Below are positions 31,279-39,893 of a stretch of DNA of 64,000 nt, one piece after another; the first letter of the stretch is position 1, and each line of letters opens with the position of its first letter. The translations under genes were made by a program, and so were the position numbers. The notes below the pieces were generated by a model. The model ran no database searches. It was not told the DNA's origin and saw only the letters and a list, made by a program, of their open reading frames with translations. Source of the stretch: Alphaproteobacteria bacterium. Its GTDB lineage: Bacteria; Pseudomonadota; Alphaproteobacteria; SHVZ01. The DNA is taken from the NCBI GenBank assembly GCA_009694025.1, contig SHVZ01000005.1, forward strand, positions 1 to 64,000, written 5' to 3'.

Positions 31279-31572
31279 ATGAAAATAAACATTAAAATTG
31301 CGCTAATTTTGGCGCTGGCCGCCGGGCCGGCCTCGGCCCAGACCGCCGATGTCTCGATCCTGGCCTCGACCTGCTCGGGCTGCCATGGCGCCAATGCCAA
31401 CGGCTCCGGCGGCATTCCCGGGCTCCGCAGCCAGCAGCAGATCTATCTCGCCGACCAGCTCAAGGCCTTCAAGGCCGGCAGCCGTCCGGCCACGGTGATG
31501 AACCGCCTGGCCAAGGGCTATACCGACGAAGAGATCGCCGGCCTCGCCGTCCATTTCTCCCGGCTCAGGTAG
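31279..31572 (+). CDS. Monoheme c-type cytochrome, candidate partner subunit of flavocytochrome c sulfide dehydrogenase
   Basis: Signal peptide plus CSGCH; 97 aa; immediately upstream of FccB-like gene. Confidence 0.85.
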   Translation: MKINIKIALILALAAGPASAQTADVSILASTCSGCHGANANGSGGIPGLRSQQQIYLADQLKAFKAGSRPATVMNRLAKGYTDEEIAGLAVHFSRLR

Positions 31573-31585
31573 GAGGAGGCCGCCC

Positions 31586-32863
31586 ATGACTCAGTTCTCA
31601 CGCCGTCGCTTCATCGCCAGCGCCGCCGGTGCTTCCGCCGCCTTCGGCCTGCCTGCCATCGCCTATGGCCAGGGTGCCGCCCGCGTCGTCGTCATCGGCG
31701 GCGGCTTCGGCGGCGCCACCGCCGCCCGCTATCTGAAGATCGCGTCGCCCCAGCTCCAGGTGACGCTGGTCGAGCCCAGCCGGCGCTTCGTCACCTGCCC
31801 CTATTCGAACCTGGTGATCGGCGGCTGGCGGAAGATCGATTCCATCACCTTCGGCTACGACAAGCTCACCCGGGCCGGCATCACCGTCGTCCACGACACT
31901 GCCGCCGCGATCGAGCACGACAAGAAGCGCGTGCGTCTCGCCGGTGGACGGATGCTGTCCTATGACCGGCTGATCGTCTCGCCAGGCATCGACATCCGCT
32001 GGAACGCCATCGCCGGCTATGACGAGACCGGAGCGCAGGCGATGCCCCATGCCTGGAGGGCGGGCGAGCAGACGCTGGTGCTTCGTCGTCAGCTCGAGTC
32101 GATGCCCGACGGCGGCCTGTTCGTCATGGCGGCCCCGGCCAATCCGTTCCGCTGCCCGCCCGGACCCTATGAGCGGGTGTCGATGATCGCGAGCTACCTG
32201 AAGCAGTCGAAGCCCAGGTCGAAGATCCTGATCCTGGATGCCAAGGAGAATTTCTCCAAGCAGCCGCTGTTCCAGGACGGCTGGCAGAAGTTCTACGCCG
32301 GCATGGTCGAGTGGGTGCCATCAGGCAAGGACGGCAAGGTCGTCAAGGTCGACGCCAAGGCGCGCACGCTCGAAACCGAGTTCGGCCAGGTCCACAAGGC
32401 CGCCGTCGCCAACGTCATCCCGCCGCAGATGGCCGGCAGGATCGCCCGCGAGTCCGGCCTCGCCGACGCATCCGGCTGGTGCCCGATCGACGCCATGACC
32501 TTCGAATCCAAGCTGGTGAAGGGCGTCCACGTCGTCGGCGACGCCACCATCGCCGCGCCGATGCCGAAGTCGGGCTTCGCCGCCAACAGCCAGGGCAAGG
32601 TCGCCGCAGCTGCGGCGGTCGCCATGCTCCAGGGCCGGACCTCGCCGGCGCCGAGCATGGTCAACACCTGCTACAGCCACGTCGCCAAGGACTATGCGAT
32701 CTCGGTTGCCGGCGTCTACCGGGGCACGCCCGACAGGGGCCTGATCGAGGTCGCGGACTCCGGCGGCGTCAGCCCGCGCCAGTGGGAGGACGAGAACCGT
32801 CGGCTTGAGTCGGTCTACGCCGACGGCTGGTACGCCAGCATCACCGGCGAGATGTTCGGCTGA
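31586..32863 (+). CDS. fccB: Flavocytochrome c sulfide dehydrogenase flavoprotein (FccB/SoxF-like)
   Basis: Tat signal SRRRFIASAAG; VVVIGGGFGGATAARYLK; RFVTCPYSNLVIGG; GDATIAAPMPKSGFAANSQGKVAA; C-terminal NTCYSHV. Confidence 0.92.
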   Translation: MTQFSRRRFIASAAGASAAFGLPAIAYGQGAARVVVIGGGFGGATAARYLKIASPQLQVTLVEPSRRFVTCPYSNLVIGGWRKIDSITFGYDKLTRAGITVVHDTAAAIEHDKKRVRLAGGRMLSYDRLIVSPGIDIRWNAIAGYDETGAQAMPHAWRAGEQTLVLRRQLESMPDGGLFVMAAPANPFRCPPGPYERVSMIASYLKQSKPRSKILILDAKENFSKQPLFQDGWQKFYAGMVEWVPSGKDGKVVKVDAKARTLETEFGQVHKAAVANVIPPQMAGRIARESGLADASGWCPIDAMTFESKLVKGVHVVGDATIAAPMPKSGFAANSQGKVAAAAAVAMLQGRTSPAPSMVNTCYSHVAKDYAISVAGVYRGTPDRGLIEVADSGGVSPRQWEDENRRLESVYADGWYASITGEMFG

Positions 32864-32871
32864 GAAGCGAG

Positions 32872-32900
32872 GCGCCCCGCTCGAGGTCTCGGCGGGGCGC
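32872..32900. terminator. Hairpin between convergent fccB and DUF1476 genes
   Basis: Perfect 9-bp stem GCGCCCCGC/GCGGGGCGC with 11-nt loop; no clear U-tract. Confidence 0.5.
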
Positions 32901-32927
32901 GGGTGAGGCGAGCGGAGTCGCCCGCAC

Positions 32928-33248
32928 TCACTCCTTCATCAGCTGCTCGCGCGCCTGGACGGCGAAGTTCTCCAGCTCCTTGCGGATGCGGTGCTCGCTC
33001 ATCTCGATGCCCTTGACCTTGAGGTCGGCCAACACCTTGGCGACGACGTCGCTGTCGCCGGGCTTGCTCATATCTTCGGCGACCATCGACTTCGCATAAG
33101 CTTCCGCCGCGTCGCCCTTGAGCCCGAGCTGGCCCGCGACCCAGTGGCCGAGCATCTTGGCGCGGCGCGCCATGACCTTGAAGCGCATCTCCTCGTCGCG
33201 CTGGAACTTCTTCTCTGCGTCCTTCTGGCGGTCGTCGAAACCCGTCAT
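32928..33248 (-). CDS. DUF1476 family protein (alphaproteobacterial F1-ATPase zeta inhibitor family)
   Basis: MTGFDDRQKDAEKKFQRDEEMRFKVMARRAKMLGHWVAGQLGLKGDAAEAYAKSMVAED. Confidence 0.92.
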   Translation of the reverse strand: MTGFDDRQKDAEKKFQRDEEMRFKVMARRAKMLGHWVAGQLGLKGDAAEAYAKSMVAEDMSKPGDSDVVAKVLADLKVKGIEMSEHRIRKELENFAVQAREQLMKE

Positions 33249-33316
33249 CTGTACGGCTCCTGGGGTGAGAACTCAGCCCTTGGCTTATCTGCTGACGGTT
33301 GCCGCGGCAAGGCCGA

Positions 33317-34420
33317 TCAGGCGCGGCCGAGCAGGACACGGAGCGCGCCCGCGAGGCTGCCGGCCTCAAGCCAGCGGAGCGCCAGAACGGCGCCGACCAC
33401 GATCGCGGCGACCGCGATGAACGAGCCGAGGGCCAGCGTCGAGAGGCCCGAGAGGCCCTGGCCGACCGTGCAACCGAGCGCCAGCACGCCGCCCGCGCCC
33501 ATCATCATGCCGCCGAAAATGTGACGGACGAGATCGGGCGTGTCGCGGAATCCTTCGAGCCGGAGCTGGCCCGAGAAAGCGGCGGCGAGGAAGGACCCGA
33601 CGAGCACGCCCCCGACGGTCGCCGCGCCGAAGCCGAGGCTGGCCCCGGTGAAGAACATCAGATACTGCAGGCCCTCGCCGGTCGGCGCGACGAAGGAGAG
33701 GCCGGCCACCTGCATCGGCTCGAAGGGATCGGCCGCGCCCCAGCTCGTCGCCGCCCAGGCGGCGGGGATGATGAGGCCGACCAGCACCGCCGCGGCGAGG
33801 AGCGCGCGATCGTGCCTCAGCGCCGGCGAGGACAGCGCCCAGGCGGCCGTCCCGAGGCCGAGGGCCAGGGTCAGCGCCGCCCGCCAGACGCCGCTGCCGA
33901 GACCGCTCGCCCGTGCCAGCAGATCGGGAAGCCCCTGGGAGGCGACCCCGATGGCCCTCAGATCGATCTGCGTCGCTTGCTCGAACGGCCGACGGATCGT
34001 CGCGAGCACGCCCCTCAGCGTCGTCAGCGCGGTGACGGCGAGGACAAGCACGGCGACCAGGCTCTTCAGGTTGCCGGCGCCGGCGCGCACCAGGATGCGG
34101 CTGCCGCAGCCGCCGGCCAGCACCATGCCGAAGCCGAAGGCGCCGCCGCCGACGATGGCGCCGGCCCAGCCGAGCGCCGGCGTCCGGTAGATCGAGCGTG
34201 AGAGGTCGGCGAGGCCGAGCGCGTCCAGGAGCTGGCTGCCGATCGTCGCGACCGCCACCGACAGAAGCGCGGCGCGAAGGCGGCGGGTGTCGCCCATCAG
34301 CACCAGGTCGGAGATCGCGCCCATCGTGCAGTACTTGCTGCGCTGGACGCCGGCGCCGAAGACCAGGCCGAGGACGAAGCCGAGGGTCAGAACCACGTAT
34401 TTTGGTTGTAATTCGTCCAC
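33317..34420 (-). CDS. YeeE/YedE family sulfur-compound transporter
   Basis: VFGAGVQRSKYCTMGAISDLVLMGDTRRLRAALL...GGCGSRILVRAGAGNLKSLV...FGGMMMGAGGVLALGCTVGQGLSG. Confidence 0.92.
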   Translation of the reverse strand: MDELQPKYVVLTLGFVLGLVFGAGVQRSKYCTMGAISDLVLMGDTRRLRAALLSVAVATIGSQLLDALGLADLSRSIYRTPALGWAGAIVGGGAFGFGMVLAGGCGSRILVRAGAGNLKSLVAVLVLAVTALTTLRGVLATIRRPFEQATQIDLRAIGVASQGLPDLLARASGLGSGVWRAALTLALGLGTAAWALSSPALRHDRALLAAAVLVGLIIPAAWAATSWGAADPFEPMQVAGLSFVAPTGEGLQYLMFFTGASLGFGAATVGGVLVGSFLAAAFSGQLRLEGFRDTPDLVRHIFGGMMMGAGGVLALGCTVGQGLSGLSTLALGSFIAVAAIVVGAVLALRWLEAGSLAGALRVLLGRA

Positions 34421-34512
34421 GACGCCCCTCTCGGCACAGTAGATTTCCTCGCCAATATAGCAGTATCTTTCGCGCGCCCCGCCGCAAGGGGCGCCGGACC
34501 CGGAGCTTCACG

Positions 34513-34743
34513 TTGGACCTGACGACCCTCGACGCCCGCGGGCTCACCTGCCCGCTGCCGGTCCTGAAGGCCCGGAAGCTGCTGCAGGCGCTGCCGCCCG
34601 GCGGGCGGCTTCGCGTGCTGGCGACCGACCCCGGCGCCGTCGGCGACTTTCACGCGCTCTGCGAGGCGGCCGGCCACACCATCATCGCTTGGAACGAGAC
34701 CGACCGGGTCTATACCTTCGACCTGGAGAAGAAGGCGGGCTGA
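34513..34743 (+). CDS. TusA family sulfurtransferase (TTG start inferred)
   Basis: LDARGLTCPLPVLKARKLLQALPPGGRLRVLATDPGAVGDFHALCEAAGH; CPxP motif. Confidence 0.92.
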   Translation: MDLTTLDARGLTCPLPVLKARKLLQALPPGGRLRVLATDPGAVGDFHALCEAAGHTIIAWNETDRVYTFDLEKKAG

Positions 34744-34750
34744 GGCGCCC

Positions 34751-35989
34751 CTATTTCGCCTTCAGCTCGGCGCGCACGCGCTCGACCACGATCGCCGGGT
34801 CGCCCGGCTTCATGCAGGTGGGGCCGAAGACCACCATGCCGTCGCGGACGCGGGCGTGGTTGGCGTGGACCGAGGGGTTGCCGTCCTGCAACCGCTTGAC
34901 CAGGTCGCGGGCGGAGAATCCGAGCTCGTCCTCGTGAACCGTCAGCTCGACCGCCGGCGCGCCCTTGTACTTCTTGTCGACCAGGGTGACGGTGGCGCCC
35001 TTGACGCCCTTGAGGCCGCTCGCGACCTCCTGGGCGAGCGCGAGCCAGCGCTTGTGGCGCTCCTCGGTGTTCTCCTCGAGGAACATCTTGAGCGCGGTGA
35101 GCAGGCCGACGATCTCCTCCTTGCCGCATTTGGAGGCGCGGCCGATGCCGCTCGCCGGGAAGCCCACCAGCTTGTGCTTGTCGAACAGCGAGGCCGGCGG
35201 GCTCCACTGCTCGAAATAGGTGTCGTGGTCGAGCTGCTGGAGGGCGGCCGACTGCACCAGATCGCGCCGGCCGGCGAGGATGCCCGACGCCTGCGGGCCG
35301 CCGATCGCCTTGCCGCCGGAGAAGGCCACGAGGTCGGCGCCCTCGGCGACGAAGCGCTTCAGGTTCTCGGCCGGAGGAAGCTGGCCTGCCGCATCGACGA
35401 TCACCGGCACGCCATGGCGGCGGGCCAAGGTCACGATCTCCTTAAGGCTGGGCTCGGTGTGCGCCTGGGCGACCCAGAGGATCGCCGCCGTCTTGTCGGT
35501 GATCGCGGCCTCGTATTCCCACACCTGGGCGTCGCGGACGCCGGCGCCGGAGAAGCGGTCGGGGATGCCGACCTCGATCAGCTTGGCGCCGGCCTGGGCC
35601 ACGGCATGGTCGTACATGTTGCGCTGGCTGCGCGACATCACGACCTCGTTCGCCATGCCGGTCGTGTCGGGCAGGCGGTTCATCTTCGCGGGGTCGAGGC
35701 CGGCCAGGCACGCCGCGGACGCCAGCATCAGCGCCGCCGATGCGCCGGCGGTCACATAGCCCGCCTCGGCGCCGGTCGCCTCGGCCAGGATCTCGCAGGC
35801 GCGGCCTTGCAGCTCGGCGAGATCGACGCACCACTGCGAGGCTTCCGCCATCGCCTCGGCGACCTCCGGGCGCATGATGCCGCCGGTCAGCCGGGTCGAC
35901 GGGCCGGAGGCGTTGACGATGGTCCGAAGCCCGAGGCGCTGATAGACGCTCTCGTTGGACCGGCGGGGCGACGCTTGCGACTTGCTCAT
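34751..35989 (-). CDS. SelA-like PLP-dependent enzyme (paralog 1)
   Basis: NESVYQRLGLRTIVNASGPSTRLTGGIMRPEVAEAM...VTAGASAALMLASAACLAG...DLVAFSGGKAIGGPQASGILAGR (PLP-Lys region). Confidence 0.88.
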   Translation of the reverse strand: MSKSQASPRRSNESVYQRLGLRTIVNASGPSTRLTGGIMRPEVAEAMAEASQWCVDLAELQGRACEILAEATGAEAGYVTAGASAALMLASAACLAGLDPAKMNRLPDTTGMANEVVMSRSQRNMYDHAVAQAGAKLIEVGIPDRFSGAGVRDAQVWEYEAAITDKTAAILWVAQAHTEPSLKEIVTLARRHGVPVIVDAAGQLPPAENLKRFVAEGADLVAFSGGKAIGGPQASGILAGRRDLVQSAALQQLDHDTYFEQWSPPASLFDKHKLVGFPASGIGRASKCGKEEIVGLLTALKMFLEENTEERHKRWLALAQEVASGLKGVKGATVTLVDKKYKGAPAVELTVHEDELGFSARDLVKRLQDGNPSVHANHARVRDGMVVFGPTCMKPGDPAIVVERVRAELKAK

Positions 35990-36068
35990 GAGGGGCTCCA
36001 GGGATCGGGTGCGAGCGCCGCGCCGGCTTCTTGCGCTCGGTGTCGGGACGGCGGCGGCAGCCGCGGAC

Positions 36069-37529
36069 TCAGCGCGCCGCCCACGGATTGTCGTCGAGCG
36101 GCCAGATCGGGCGCTTCACCCGCGTGTACGGTATCTTCTTGAAGTCGCGCGGCAAGGCTCCCGGGCCGTCGGAGTAGAGCACCTGCTTGGCGATCGGGCC
36201 GAAGGCGCCGTGGAAGTGGTTGGTCGACTTGACGATGATGATGCGCTTCGACTTGAGGTCGACGCCGAGGTTGGTGAAGAGGTCGGTCCCCAGCGCCTGG
36301 GTGCGGATGGAGATCAGGACGACGGTGATGCCGTCGAACTCGATCGAGGCTGCATCGCCGATGTCGACGACGGCGCCGGAGAAGGTCTGGGTCCCGGCCT
36401 TCACGCACTTGATCACCTTGACCTTGGCATCGATCGGCTCGCCCGAGGTCGGGCCCATCTTGCCGCCGAAGCGGAGGTCGAACGAGGCGCCGTCGCCGGC
36501 GGCGTGGCACATCTTGACCGCGATCGGGTCCCAGACCGGGCCGACCGCGACGTTCTTAACGCCGCGCTTACGCAAGAGCTCGAGGTAGAACGTCGAGTCC
36601 GACGGCGCGCCGCCGCCGGCATTGTCGGCTGGCTCGGCCACCACCGCCGGCCCGCCCTCGACCTTGAGCGCGGCATCGAGCGCGCCTTCGAGGGTGAGGA
36701 ACGGCGGACGCACGGAATCGCGCATCTGGATCAGCTCCTCGCCGAGCTCTTTCGCCAGCTTGTCGCCGAACGCCTTCTTGTTGTCGGTGACGACCAGGAT
36801 CTTGGTGCCGAGGTCGGGGACGTCGGCGTAGGGATAGCAGTGGATGACGGAGATCGAGAGCACGCCGTCCTTCCCCTCCATCGCCTTGGTCTTGTCGACG
36901 AAGCTCCGCATCGGCTCGCGCGAGGTCGGATAGGAGTTGATCATCCGGCAGTCGAAGAGGCTCTGCACCGGCTTGAGCTTGCCGACGGCGGTGTCGGCGA
37001 TGATCTGGACCAGCTCCTCGCCGCGCTCGGCGAAGTCGGTGTGCGGGAACTCCTTGAAGCAGATCATCGCGTCGGTCGACGAGAGCATCGTCTCGGTCAT
37101 GTGGCAGTGCGGATCGAGCTCGGCGCCGATCGGCACCTTGGGCCCGACGATCTTGCGGATGCGGGCGAGCAGGTCGCCTTCGCAGTCGTCGTAGCCGTCG
37201 GCGACCATGGCGCCGTGGAGGCCCATCAGCACCGCGTCGACCGGCATCGCCGCCTTGAGCTGACCAAGGATCTCCTCGCGCAGGCCCTCATAGGCCTCCC
37301 GCGTCACCGTGCCCGCAGGCTCGGCGAAGGTGCACGTGCCTTCGACCACCTCCCAGTTCGACGACTTGGCGCGTTTGCGCGCGGCCGCCAGCGGCGCGGT
37401 GAACAGCTTCGGGTGGTCCGGGTGCTTGCCGGCCGGGGCGTAGAACGACTCCTCGAACTCCCTCCGGCTGGTCAGCATCGGCGAGAAGGTGTTGGTCTCG
37501 GTCGCCAGCGAGGCGGTGAACACGCGCAT
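36069..37529 (-). CDS. M81 family metallopeptidase (MlrC-like)
   Basis: MRVFTASLATETNTFSPMLTSRREFEE...LMGLHGAMVADGYDDCEGDLL...ELDPHCHMTETML...DNAGGGAPSDSTFYLELL. Confidence 0.92.
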   Translation of the reverse strand: MRVFTASLATETNTFSPMLTSRREFEESFYAPAGKHPDHPKLFTAPLAAARKRAKSSNWEVVEGTCTFAEPAGTVTREAYEGLREEILGQLKAAMPVDAVLMGLHGAMVADGYDDCEGDLLARIRKIVGPKVPIGAELDPHCHMTETMLSSTDAMICFKEFPHTDFAERGEELVQIIADTAVGKLKPVQSLFDCRMINSYPTSREPMRSFVDKTKAMEGKDGVLSISVIHCYPYADVPDLGTKILVVTDNKKAFGDKLAKELGEELIQMRDSVRPPFLTLEGALDAALKVEGGPAVVAEPADNAGGGAPSDSTFYLELLRKRGVKNVAVGPVWDPIAVKMCHAAGDGASFDLRFGGKMGPTSGEPIDAKVKVIKCVKAGTQTFSGAVVDIGDAASIEFDGITVVLISIRTQALGTDLFTNLGVDLKSKRIIIVKSTNHFHGAFGPIAKQVLYSDGPGALPRDFKKIPYTRVKRPIWPLDDNPWAAR

Positions 37530-37613
37530 GGCCGTCAGGTCCTTCGATATGATTTCTCATAAGAAAACAAAGTCGGGCGCCGGCGCCGAAGAGGCCGCCG
37601 CCCCGTCGGAGGG

Positions 37614-39113
37614 TCAGCCGCCGACACGCTTCGCCGTGAACGTCGTTCGTCCGTACTGGGACAGGTTGACCGGCCCCTGGTAGGCCTCGCCGCCGGTCCC
37701 CAGGGTCACGTCGCCCGATATCGCCTCGTTGCCGACGGTTCCCTCGAAGCGGTATCCCAGCCGGCATCCCTCGTAGCGATGGAGCGCCGAGATGGTGACG
37801 CGGTCGCCGGCGACGGTGCCGGTCACGTCGCTGTCGAAATAACGGGTCTTGTGCCGTCCGCCGACCTTGGCATCGGCCTGGGTCAGTTCGAGGCGGTGGG
37901 TCGCCGGGCCGTCGCCGAAGTCGATCTTCACCTCCCAGCTTCCGCCGACCTTGACCGTGGGCGCCGGCGCCGGCGCCGCGACCGGCTTCGTCGAGAGGGC
38001 GCGGACGAGCGCGTCGCCGACCAGCTCGGCCTCGCCCTTCACCAGGTTGAACGGATCGACGACCACCGATCGGTCGGTCGCCTCCATATCGTCGAGCATG
38101 ATGCGGGGCTCGCCGTCGAGCAGGCGTTGGCGGACGTCGAGGCCGCCGCACGCGACCTTGCCGCGGTCCCAGGAGATGACCAGCCGCGGCACCTTGACGC
38201 CGCCCGAGGGCGGGCGAATCTTGGCTTCGACGCCGGCGACCGCCGACACCTTCTTGGCGATGATGTCGAGATAGGCATGCCACTGCTTGCGCTCGCTCGG
38301 GTGGTCACGCTCGCCGATCCAGTATTCGAGCGCGGTGACCACGCCGATGATGTCCTCCTTCGACACCTTCATCGGCCGGCCGATGCCCTGATGCGGCGAG
38401 GCGTTGGCCCAGGCGGCGCGGATGATCTTCTCCTTGCCGAGGAGGAGGCCGGTGACCTGGGGCGCCTGCAGGAACTTGCCGCCGGAATAGATCACCATGT
38501 CGGCGCCGCGCACCAGCCAGGGCGACGGGCGCTCGATGTGCTCGGAGGCGGCGTCGATCATGATCGGCACGTTCTTGGGCTCAGCCAGCTCGATCATCTC
38601 CTCGAGCGAGACCGGACCCTCCGGCTCGATCAGGCCATAGACGCAGATCATCGCGATCGTCGGGTCTTCGAGGAGCTTCGCCAGCTCGTCCCTGGAAGCG
38701 AACTCGTGGATGGTGGTGCCGACCATGCGGATGGCGTGGTCGTAGGAGAAGCGGTGACCCTTCGGCATCAGCACCTTGTTGCGCATGCCCTCGGTCAGCG
38801 GCAGGCGCGAGATGCGCTCGGGATCGTTGCCGGCGACCGCGCCGGCGGTGCCGAGGCAGACCGCCGCGGCGCTGCCCGGCGTGACGATGCCGAACTCGCA
38901 ACCCATCAGCTCGCCGATGCGCTTTCCCGCCTGTTCCATCAGCTCGTAGATGTTGACGAACTGGCCGGCGGCGCGGGACATCGCCGCCCTCACCTCCGGG
39001 CGCATCAGGCTGCCGCCGTGGATGGTACGGACCGAGGCGCAGTTGATGAACGGCCGGACGTTGAGGCGGAGATACGGATTGTCGTTGGCGCGGGAGGCGG
39101 AGGTGTCGGTCAT
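37614..39113 (-). CDS. SelA-like PLP-dependent enzyme (paralog 2) with extra C-terminal beta-rich domain
   Basis: NPYLRLNVRPFINCASVRTIHGGSLMRPEVRAAM...MVIYSGGKFLQAPQVTGLLLGK; about 110-aa C-terminal extension GGSWEVKIDFGDGPATHRLELTQADAKVGG... Confidence 0.87.
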   Translation of the reverse strand: MTDTSASRANDNPYLRLNVRPFINCASVRTIHGGSLMRPEVRAAMSRAAGQFVNIYELMEQAGKRIGELMGCEFGIVTPGSAAAVCLGTAGAVAGNDPERISRLPLTEGMRNKVLMPKGHRFSYDHAIRMVGTTIHEFASRDELAKLLEDPTIAMICVYGLIEPEGPVSLEEMIELAEPKNVPIMIDAASEHIERPSPWLVRGADMVIYSGGKFLQAPQVTGLLLGKEKIIRAAWANASPHQGIGRPMKVSKEDIIGVVTALEYWIGERDHPSERKQWHAYLDIIAKKVSAVAGVEAKIRPPSGGVKVPRLVISWDRGKVACGGLDVRQRLLDGEPRIMLDDMEATDRSVVVDPFNLVKGEAELVGDALVRALSTKPVAAPAPAPTVKVGGSWEVKIDFGDGPATHRLELTQADAKVGGRHKTRYFDSDVTGTVAGDRVTISALHRYEGCRLGYRFEGTVGNEAISGDVTLGTGGEAYQGPVNLSQYGRTTFTAKRVGG

Positions 39114-39125
39114 CGGTCGGTTTCC

Positions 39126-39893
39126 TTAGTTCGCATAGTCCGGCGTTTCCTTGTCGAGGATTCGCCGCCAGGCGTCCAGATGCATGCGGGAATCCCAGCG
39201 CTCGCCGATGGGGCCGAGGTGGCGCCGTCGTGCGTCGTCGGGGAGCTTGAGCAGCTTCTGGCCGGACTGCATGGCGGTGATCTGGTACATCGCCGTCCGT
39301 TCGGCGCCGGAAAGCTCGTCGAACGCTTCCTCGATGGTGGGACCGACTACGGTGACGCCGTGGCCAGGCATGATCAGGATGGTCTTGTCGCCGAGAACGC
39401 GAGCGTACCGGTCGCCCTCGTCGACGTTGATCGTACCGGGTGCCTCCTCGTCGTAGGCGATGCGGTCGTTGAGGGTCAGGTTGTTGAGGTGGCAGAGCTC
39501 GAGCCGGCCGTGATCGATCATCGACAGCGCCGTCAGATACTGCGGATGAACGTGCAGCACGGCGACTGCCTTTGGATTGGCAAGGTGGATGCGGGCATGA
39601 ATGAAGAAGGCGACCTTGCGGAGCTCGCCCTTGCCCGAGACCACGTTGCCCTCGAGGTCGCAGACGATCAGGTTGGAGGCGGTCAGCTCCTGGAACAGGA
39701 GGCCGCGCGGGTTGATCAGGAACAACGGCTTGTCGCCGCCGCCCGGGAGCATGACGGAATGGTGGTTGCCGATCTGCTCGTTCCAGCCGAAACGCGCATG
39801 GATGCGGAAGACCGCGGCGAGGTCGGTGCGGAGCTTCCACTCCGCCTCCTCCTGGGCCGAGGTCGAGCGGGCGCGGATCGGGACGGCGGTCAT
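39126..39893 (-). CDS. Class II aldolase/adducin family protein
   Basis: DLAAVFRIHARFGWNEQIGNHHSVMLPGG...HARIHLANPKAVAVLHVHPQYLTALS...IMPGHGVTVVGPTIEEAF. Confidence 0.92.
   Translation of the reverse strand: MTAVPIRARSTSAQEEAEWKLRTDLAAVFRIHARFGWNEQIGNHHSVMLPGGGDKPLFLINPRGLLFQELTASNLIVCDLEGNVVSGKGELRKVAFFIHARIHLANPKAVAVLHVHPQYLTALSMIDHGRLELCHLNNLTLNDRIAYDEEAPGTINVDEGDRYARVLGDKTILIMPGHGVTVVGPTIEEAFDELSGAERTAMYQITAMQSGQKLLKLPDDARRRHLGPIGERWDSRMHLDAWRRILDKETPDYAN

Follow-up and report, generated by a model that had tools for sequence, protein, structure and literature searches.

A conserved Ald-SelA2-M81-SelA1 gene cluster of probable catabolic role with two uncharacterised clades of SelA-like enzymes

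The stretch of 64,000 nucleotides analysed here (hereafter the window; GenBank assembly GCA_009694025.1, contig SHVZ01000005.1, positions 1 to 64,000) belongs to an alphaproteobacterium from a lake and contains a cluster of four minus-strand genes, which encode a class II aldolase/adducin-family protein (Ald), a SelA-like pyridoxal-5'-phosphate (PLP) enzyme (SelA2), an MlrC-like protein of family M81 (M81) and a second SelA-like PLP enzyme (SelA1; Table 1). This cluster is real and conserved and it comprises two uncharacterised clades of PLP enzymes, while its role is probably catabolic. In the reading that we favour, for which we see close to even chances, M81 frees an amino acid from an amide, the SelA-like enzymes deaminate it by elimination and Ald processes the resulting oxo acid. 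In its favour are a gene order kept throughout the genus, the recurrence of M81 next to SelA1, genomic contexts containing amide hydrolases and dipeptide transporters, a related cluster on contig 65 of the same genome, a further one at locus L143, and the intact zinc ligands and PLP lysine of the respective proteins (L and G denote our labels for loci and genomes).

Conservation of the cluster

The four genes were found exactly where a preliminary description of this DNA had placed them, and their open reading frames (ORFs) and domain profiles agree with the families it had named. The window contains no N and all four ORFs are complete, with intergenic gaps of 12 bp between Ald and SelA2, 84 bp between SelA2 and M81 (37530-37613) and 79 bp between M81 and SelA1. 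The ratio of nonsynonymous to synonymous substitution rates, each determined against two congeners, amounts to about 0.09-0.2 for all four genes and is similar for the neighbouring PutA used as control, which indicates purifying selection and thus functional genes.

Four further congeneric species (L004 in G274, L005 in G351, L006, where the locus stops inside M81a, and L007) share the order Ald-SelA2-M81a-(M81b)-(M81c)-SelA1, which hence occurs in five species including that of the window, with identities to the latter of 82-91% for Ald, 85-88% for SelA2, 90-95% for M81a and 91-95% for SelA1. The congeners carry two or three M81 genes in tandem, the additional copies being 56-60% identical to M81a, which is the only one in the window. 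The flanks, including a methyltransferase, PutA, a YeeE-like transporter and flavocytochrome c sulfide dehydrogenase (FCSD), are syntenic in the genus as well, so that the cluster is a stable feature of this part of the chromosome. A search for related loci returned congeners only. The conservation of gene order at issue in the preliminary description therefore holds within the genus but not for a four-gene unit beyond it, where M81 with SelA1 and, once, Ald with SelA1 recur.

The region between SelA2 and M81 spans 340-617 bp in congeners (L058 11048-11387; L059 11692-12308; L007 11501-11844) compared to the 84 bp of the window. Close to M81a it contains the element TTTTCTTATGAGAAATCAT followed by a promoter-like sequence TTGGCR-N17-WTAGCG, whose core was read by eye. 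With at most three mismatches, the motif has a single occurrence in each of four genomes, those of the window and of the three congeners searched, and it is also present in L007. The congener gap in addition harbours a small antisense ORF of about 45-60 residues with one transmembrane-like stretch, also read by eye, which is found in two copies in G351. The window has retained the TTTTCTTATGAGAAATCAT motif but neither the antisense ORF nor the promoter-like core. This conserved single-copy element, together with the promoter-like core and the antisense ORF of the congeners, indicates that the cluster is probably not one simple operon and suggests that M81 and SelA1 form their own unit in congeners, whereas in the window they may be read together with Ald and SelA2. 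The four-gene layout described earlier is right for the window, although congeners fill its single M81 slot with several genes.

Table 1. Features of the cluster (window coordinates)
Feature	Position	Strand	Remarks
Ald, class II aldolase/adducin-family protein	39126..39893	minus	255 aa, first gene of the cluster; PF00596 7e-39
SelA2, SelA-like PLP enzyme 2	37614..39113	minus	499 aa; starts 12 bp downstream of Ald; TIGR01437
SelA2 C-terminal calycin/avidin-like eight-strand beta-barrel domain (predicted)	37617..37958	minus	residues ~386-499; AlphaFold2, Foldseek
Conserved cis element TTTTCTTATGAGAAATCAT	37549..37567	minus	upstream of M81; motif search
M81 (MlrC-like) zinc amidohydrolase/peptidase	36069..37529	minus	486 aa; PF07364+PF07171
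SelA1, SelA-like PLP enzyme 1	34751..35989	minus	412 aa; PF03841 2e-14

Two clades of SelA-like enzymes

SelA1 matches PF03841 (2e-14) and SelA2, which remains under the cut-off of this model, matches TIGR01437 of the DgaE family (7e-52), with family-profile scores of 205/199 bits for SelA1 and 178/176 bits for SelA2. The nearest solved structures of both are DGL (7LC0) and 8T7J, DGL being the closest characterised enzyme. In a tree of 66 proteins, SelA1 and SelA2 reside in separate clades of 22 rows (support 98/87) and 17 rows (99/96), which join at 95/93 apart from DGL, 8T7J and their kin (97/85), and the true SelAs group together (100/100), a long branch setting them far apart from every SelA-like protein.

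This placement bears on a role of SelA1 or SelA2 in selenocysteine synthesis, which we regard as hardly conceivable and have rejected. Such a role would be in line with the PF03841 match and with the presence of selB and tRNA-Sec in congeners, but these hold their own true selA beside selB, the split in the tree has full support (100/100), and the SelA model TIGR00474 scores SelA1 with 63 and SelA2 with 22 bits against a cut-off of 268. What is shared with the L-seryl-tRNA(Sec) selenium transferase is the fold and the PLP lysine. In genomes G178, G274, G056 and G053, selB adjoins tRNA-Sec with a true selA beside them, and in the first three apparent formate-dehydrogenase genes, read by eye, lie next to selA-selB. 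No selB above cut-off was found in the window's own genome, which says little since this genome is only 78% complete. The preliminary description had likewise called this role unlikely because neither selB nor selC is visible in the window, a weak reason in light of congeners that encode selA, selB and tRNA-Sec at a separate site, although its conclusion stands; the clustering with bona fide SelA that it had named as a counter-indication is seen in the tree for neither protein. In public records, SelA-like proteins are annotated as seryl-tRNA selenium transferase, aminotransferase or hypothetical, a common mis-annotation that an assignment of their function would mend.

All aligned rows, SelA1 and SelA2 included, have the PLP lysine. 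In DGL, His163 acts as proton donor (PMC9529869), and its His162-His163 pair has no conserved counterpart in either clade, a histidine in SelA1 of the window (AQAHTE) not being conserved across its own clade. From the arginines at positions 301, 332 and 346, which place the phosphate in DGL, none is found in the SelA1 clade, and nearly all members of the SelA2 clade keep Arg301 alone, with Arg332 replaced by Asp and Arg346 by Phe in the window. Since His163 and most or all of these arginines are missing, neither protein is expected to handle glucosaminate-6-phosphate and we have rejected DGL activity for both. The DgaE-like chemistry on an amino-sugar acid proposed in the preliminary description is thus not borne out in that form, both proteins being located outside the DGL clade, devoid of a conserved His163 and equipped with none (SelA1) or one (SelA2) of the three phosphate arginines. 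Similarities to the dga operon (PMC9529869) concern the fold, the full-length match of SelA2, the PLP lysine and the succession of a PLP ammonia-lyase and an aldolase. In contrast to this operon, the window cluster contains an aldolase-family gene of another family and an amide hydrolase, and it contains no phosphotransferase system. Judged from these residues and genes, the analogy to DgaE appears to hold for fold and operon logic and not for the substrate.

The same features weigh on an alternative in which SelA1 and/or SelA2 act as ammonia-lyases on free, non-phosphorylated glucosaminate or a similar acid, while an N-acyl group is taken off by M81 and the 2-keto-3-deoxy acid is split by Ald. 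Besides the relationship to DGL, it draws on a haloarchaeal relative of SelA1 (48% identical) within an N-acetylglucosamine-type cluster of glucose dehydrogenase, galactonate dehydratase, PIG-L deacetylase and RidA, and on the proposal that a homologous haloarchaeal protein is a glucosaminate-6-phosphate ammonia-lyase in N-acetylglucosamine catabolism (PMC12343721). However, bacterial relatives of SelA1 are found beside amide hydrolases and dipeptide-type transporters rather than sugar genes, and neither the cluster nor its adjoining genes include a sugar kinase, dehydrogenase or lactonase, which together with the lost DGL residues renders amino-sugar-acid catabolism unlikely.

A second distinguishing feature of SelA2 is a C-terminal extension of 116-151 residues, which is found in almost every member of its clade except for a long Granulicella branch (L039_6046). 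The family of SelA2 had been recognised in the preliminary description, where this domain, of about 115 residues in the window, went unmentioned. Folded alone, the tail is predicted by AlphaFold2 as an eight-strand antiparallel barrel (predicted local distance difference test, pLDDT, 76; predicted template-modelling score 0.67), whereas a full-length prediction that included five close orthologues was of low quality (pLDDT 52) and not used. Foldseek ranks Cap15, avidins and fatty-acid-binding proteins highest (TM-scores of about 0.5-0.66, E about 1e-2), and we thus describe the predicted shape as calycin-like and claim no homology to these proteins.

Elsewhere among these families, two SelA-like genes are located in tandem in G338 (L060 4083-6414), both on long branches and one without most DGL features. 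A PhyH-family dioxygenase is encoded near a SelA2 paralogue in this genus (L044 5753-10018) and beside SelA1 in G120 (L143 4090-6155).

Properties of M81 and Ald

We know of no M81-family substrate other than linearised microcystin, although the family is widespread, with members in 131 of 372 alphaproteobacterial genomes sampled, or about one third. M81 of the window contains both domains of the family (DUF1485, PF07364, 4e-89; MlrC_C, PF07171, 1e-49) and can be aligned to MlrC from end to end (356 bits, 2e-105). The zinc ligands of MlrC, Glu39, Asp167, His169 and His191 (PDB 7YLQ; PMC9982164), are all retained as Glu11, Asp139, His141 and His163, as they are in the eight other M81 copies compared. 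In contrast, Trp59, Phe67, the general base Glu70, Gln468, Ser485 and Arg492 of MlrC are replaced by Ala, His, Leu, His, Gly and Ile, hence at six of six positions, and the protein scores 374 bits with the NCBIfam model of MlrC (NF041767), whose cut-off is 999. By these residues it is an M81-family enzyme with a predicted pocket unlike that of MlrC. We thus find it very improbable that the cluster degrades a microcystin-type peptide toxin: the full-length match would agree with such a role, but the substrate pocket is lost, the family is too common in the class and the cluster has no known microcystin context. A function as true microcystinase was accordingly rejected.

Ald matches PF00596 above its cut-off (134 bits), the nearest NCBIfam model being PRK06486, under its cut-off. 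By hand reading, the histidine ligands of the metal are kept in the motifs HVH and PGHG. Class II sugar-phosphate aldolases of the FucA type carry an acidic residue at FucA position 73; Ald contains an alanine at the gap-free equivalent, and 3OCR a glycine, as read by hand rather than from a computed FucA alignment in this region. Since the class II aldolase/adducin family also takes in decarboxylases and adducins, Ald may, in view of this breadth and of the apparently missing acid, not be an aldolase at all.

Neighbourhoods beyond the genus and the proposed pathway

Outside the genus, where loci of unusual codon usage missed by the ORF caller were read from ORF lists or tblastn, 5 of 15 loci have M81 and a SelA1 gene no more than 7 kb apart (G182, with the arrangement M81-M81-SelA1, G231, G358, G044 and Mesorhizobium L042), compared to 0.5 loci expected (P(>=5) about 1e-4, with first-look M81 candidate counts taken as upper bounds and counts guessed for G053, G120 and Mesorhizobium). 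The M81-M81-SelA1 block among them (L137) belongs to another family, and its neighbours include hydantoinase A and an S-Me-thiohydantoin-desulfurase-like protein. Other SelA1 relatives are accompanied by a PRK09237 amidohydrolase and diaminopropionate ammonia-lyase (L152), by an AtzD-type ring-opening (cyanuric acid) amidohydrolase, above its NCBIfam cut-off, 22 bp upstream (L151 8006-10265; L150 7986-10248), and by SBP_bac_5 transporters, gamma-glutamyltranspeptidase (GGT), RraA and RidA. In L143, Ald, RidA, Ldh_2, SelA1 and PhyH are clustered. Relatives of Ald with 58-70% identity lie near dipeptide-type transporters and, in most of seven loci, DoeB-like N-acyl deacetylases; their neighbours also include a D-Ser/D-Thr-type dehydratase and, in one locus, DgcA (N-acetyl-D-Glu racemase). 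Finally, contig 65 of the same genome contains a second cluster of SelA-like, M81, PRK09237 amidohydrolase, RraA and GGT genes (L045 3688-13189), whose SelA-like protein belongs to the DGL-side clade and keeps the His pair and the arginines. This cluster and those in Granulicella L039, L050 and L152, which combine a PRK09237-type amidohydrolase with SelA-like and RidA/RraA genes, resemble that of the window in that an amide hydrolase gene adjoins those for one or two SelA-like PLP enzymes and sometimes an RraA-type aldolase, and differ in that M81 replaces or joins the amidohydrolase and a class II aldolase replaces RraA in the window. Published links of M81, or of COG3964, with SelA-like enzymes were sought in the open-licence literature, where nothing relevant was found.

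From these observed genes, residues, clades and neighbourhoods we infer the order of steps, the beta-elimination as PLP chemistry and the reaction of Ald. The pathway would consist of two modules, Ald-SelA2 and M81 (in one to three copies)-SelA1. A peptide-like compound would be imported and its amide bond cut by the M81 zinc enzyme to yield an alpha-amino acid whose amino group is free, with which SelA1 and/or SelA2 would form an aldimine followed by elimination across C-alpha and C-beta. The ensuing enamine or imine would give rise to a 2-oxo acid and ammonia, and Ald would act late as a metal-dependent enzyme in the cleavage or decarboxylation of the oxo acid. The substrate that would fit best is an amino acid in amide or peptide linkage that bears no phosphate and is perhaps D- or beta-substituted. 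The catabolism of a small molecule envisaged in the preliminary description is supported, as is an amide- or peptide-linked substrate by the contexts of the relatives of M81, SelA1 and Ald. An elimination is in line with the recurrence near relatives of RidA, a protein that removes enamines and imines; a link of RidA to clades lacking His163 was dropped, since it is also found near DGL-side members that retain this residue.

Several observations weigh against the proposed pathway. The four-gene cluster itself contains neither a transporter nor a regulator, 10 of the 15 SelA1 loci have no M81 nearby, and SelA2 relatives outside the genus are not found near M81. No measured activity of a member of either clade was found in the literature, and the breadth of the Ald family makes the final step a guess. 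On Sinorhizobium meliloti plasmids (L038 7950-9554; L043 7926-9530), moreover, a tailed SelA2-family protein is located with aepX (phosphoenolpyruvate mutase), an aminotransferase, a cytidylyltransferase and a CDP-alcohol phosphatidyltransferase in a cluster of biosynthetic appearance, which may encode a phosphonolipid pathway that includes a SelA-like step. A biosynthetic role, where SelA2 makes or modifies a small molecule or a lipid head group, nevertheless strikes us as quite improbable for the window, whose cluster includes no phosphonate gene and where the contexts of M81 and Ald are degradative, the Sinorhizobium proteins moreover forming a separate long branch within the SelA2 clade.

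In another alternative, the PLP enzymes would not eliminate but racemise, epimerise or transfer on an amino acid, for example by turning D- into L-amino acids after cleavage by M81, or SelA1 and SelA2 would form one hetero-oligomer. SelA-fold enzymes are oligomers, and the paired SelA-like genes in Granulicella and L060, the absence of the DGL proton donor and the DgcA-type racemase and dipeptide epimerase in the neighbourhoods are consistent with this possibility. We consider it improbable, as both proteins contain the PLP lysine site, RidA recurs near relatives and SelA1 and SelA2 are unlinked beyond the genus.

In a bolder version, SelA1 and SelA2 would be founders of two PLP families outside DgaE and SelA that act on new substrates, namely amino acids released by M81 amide hydrolases, and the barrel of the SelA2 family could bind or tether the substrate. 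M81 and SelA1 would in that case define an undescribed catabolic route for amide-linked amino acids, giving the M81 family an ordinary physiological role. This version appears rather doubtful, though not far-fetched. As almost no M81 or SelA-like protein has a known substrate, the recurrent pairing of M81 and SelA1 offers a concrete handle, namely two adjacent enzymes for joint study on amide-linked amino acids.

With respect to the surroundings of the cluster in the window, sulfur-related genes adjoin it at 31309-34743, which encode a cytochrome c with the FCSD flavoprotein, a YeeE/TsuA-like transporter and TusA.

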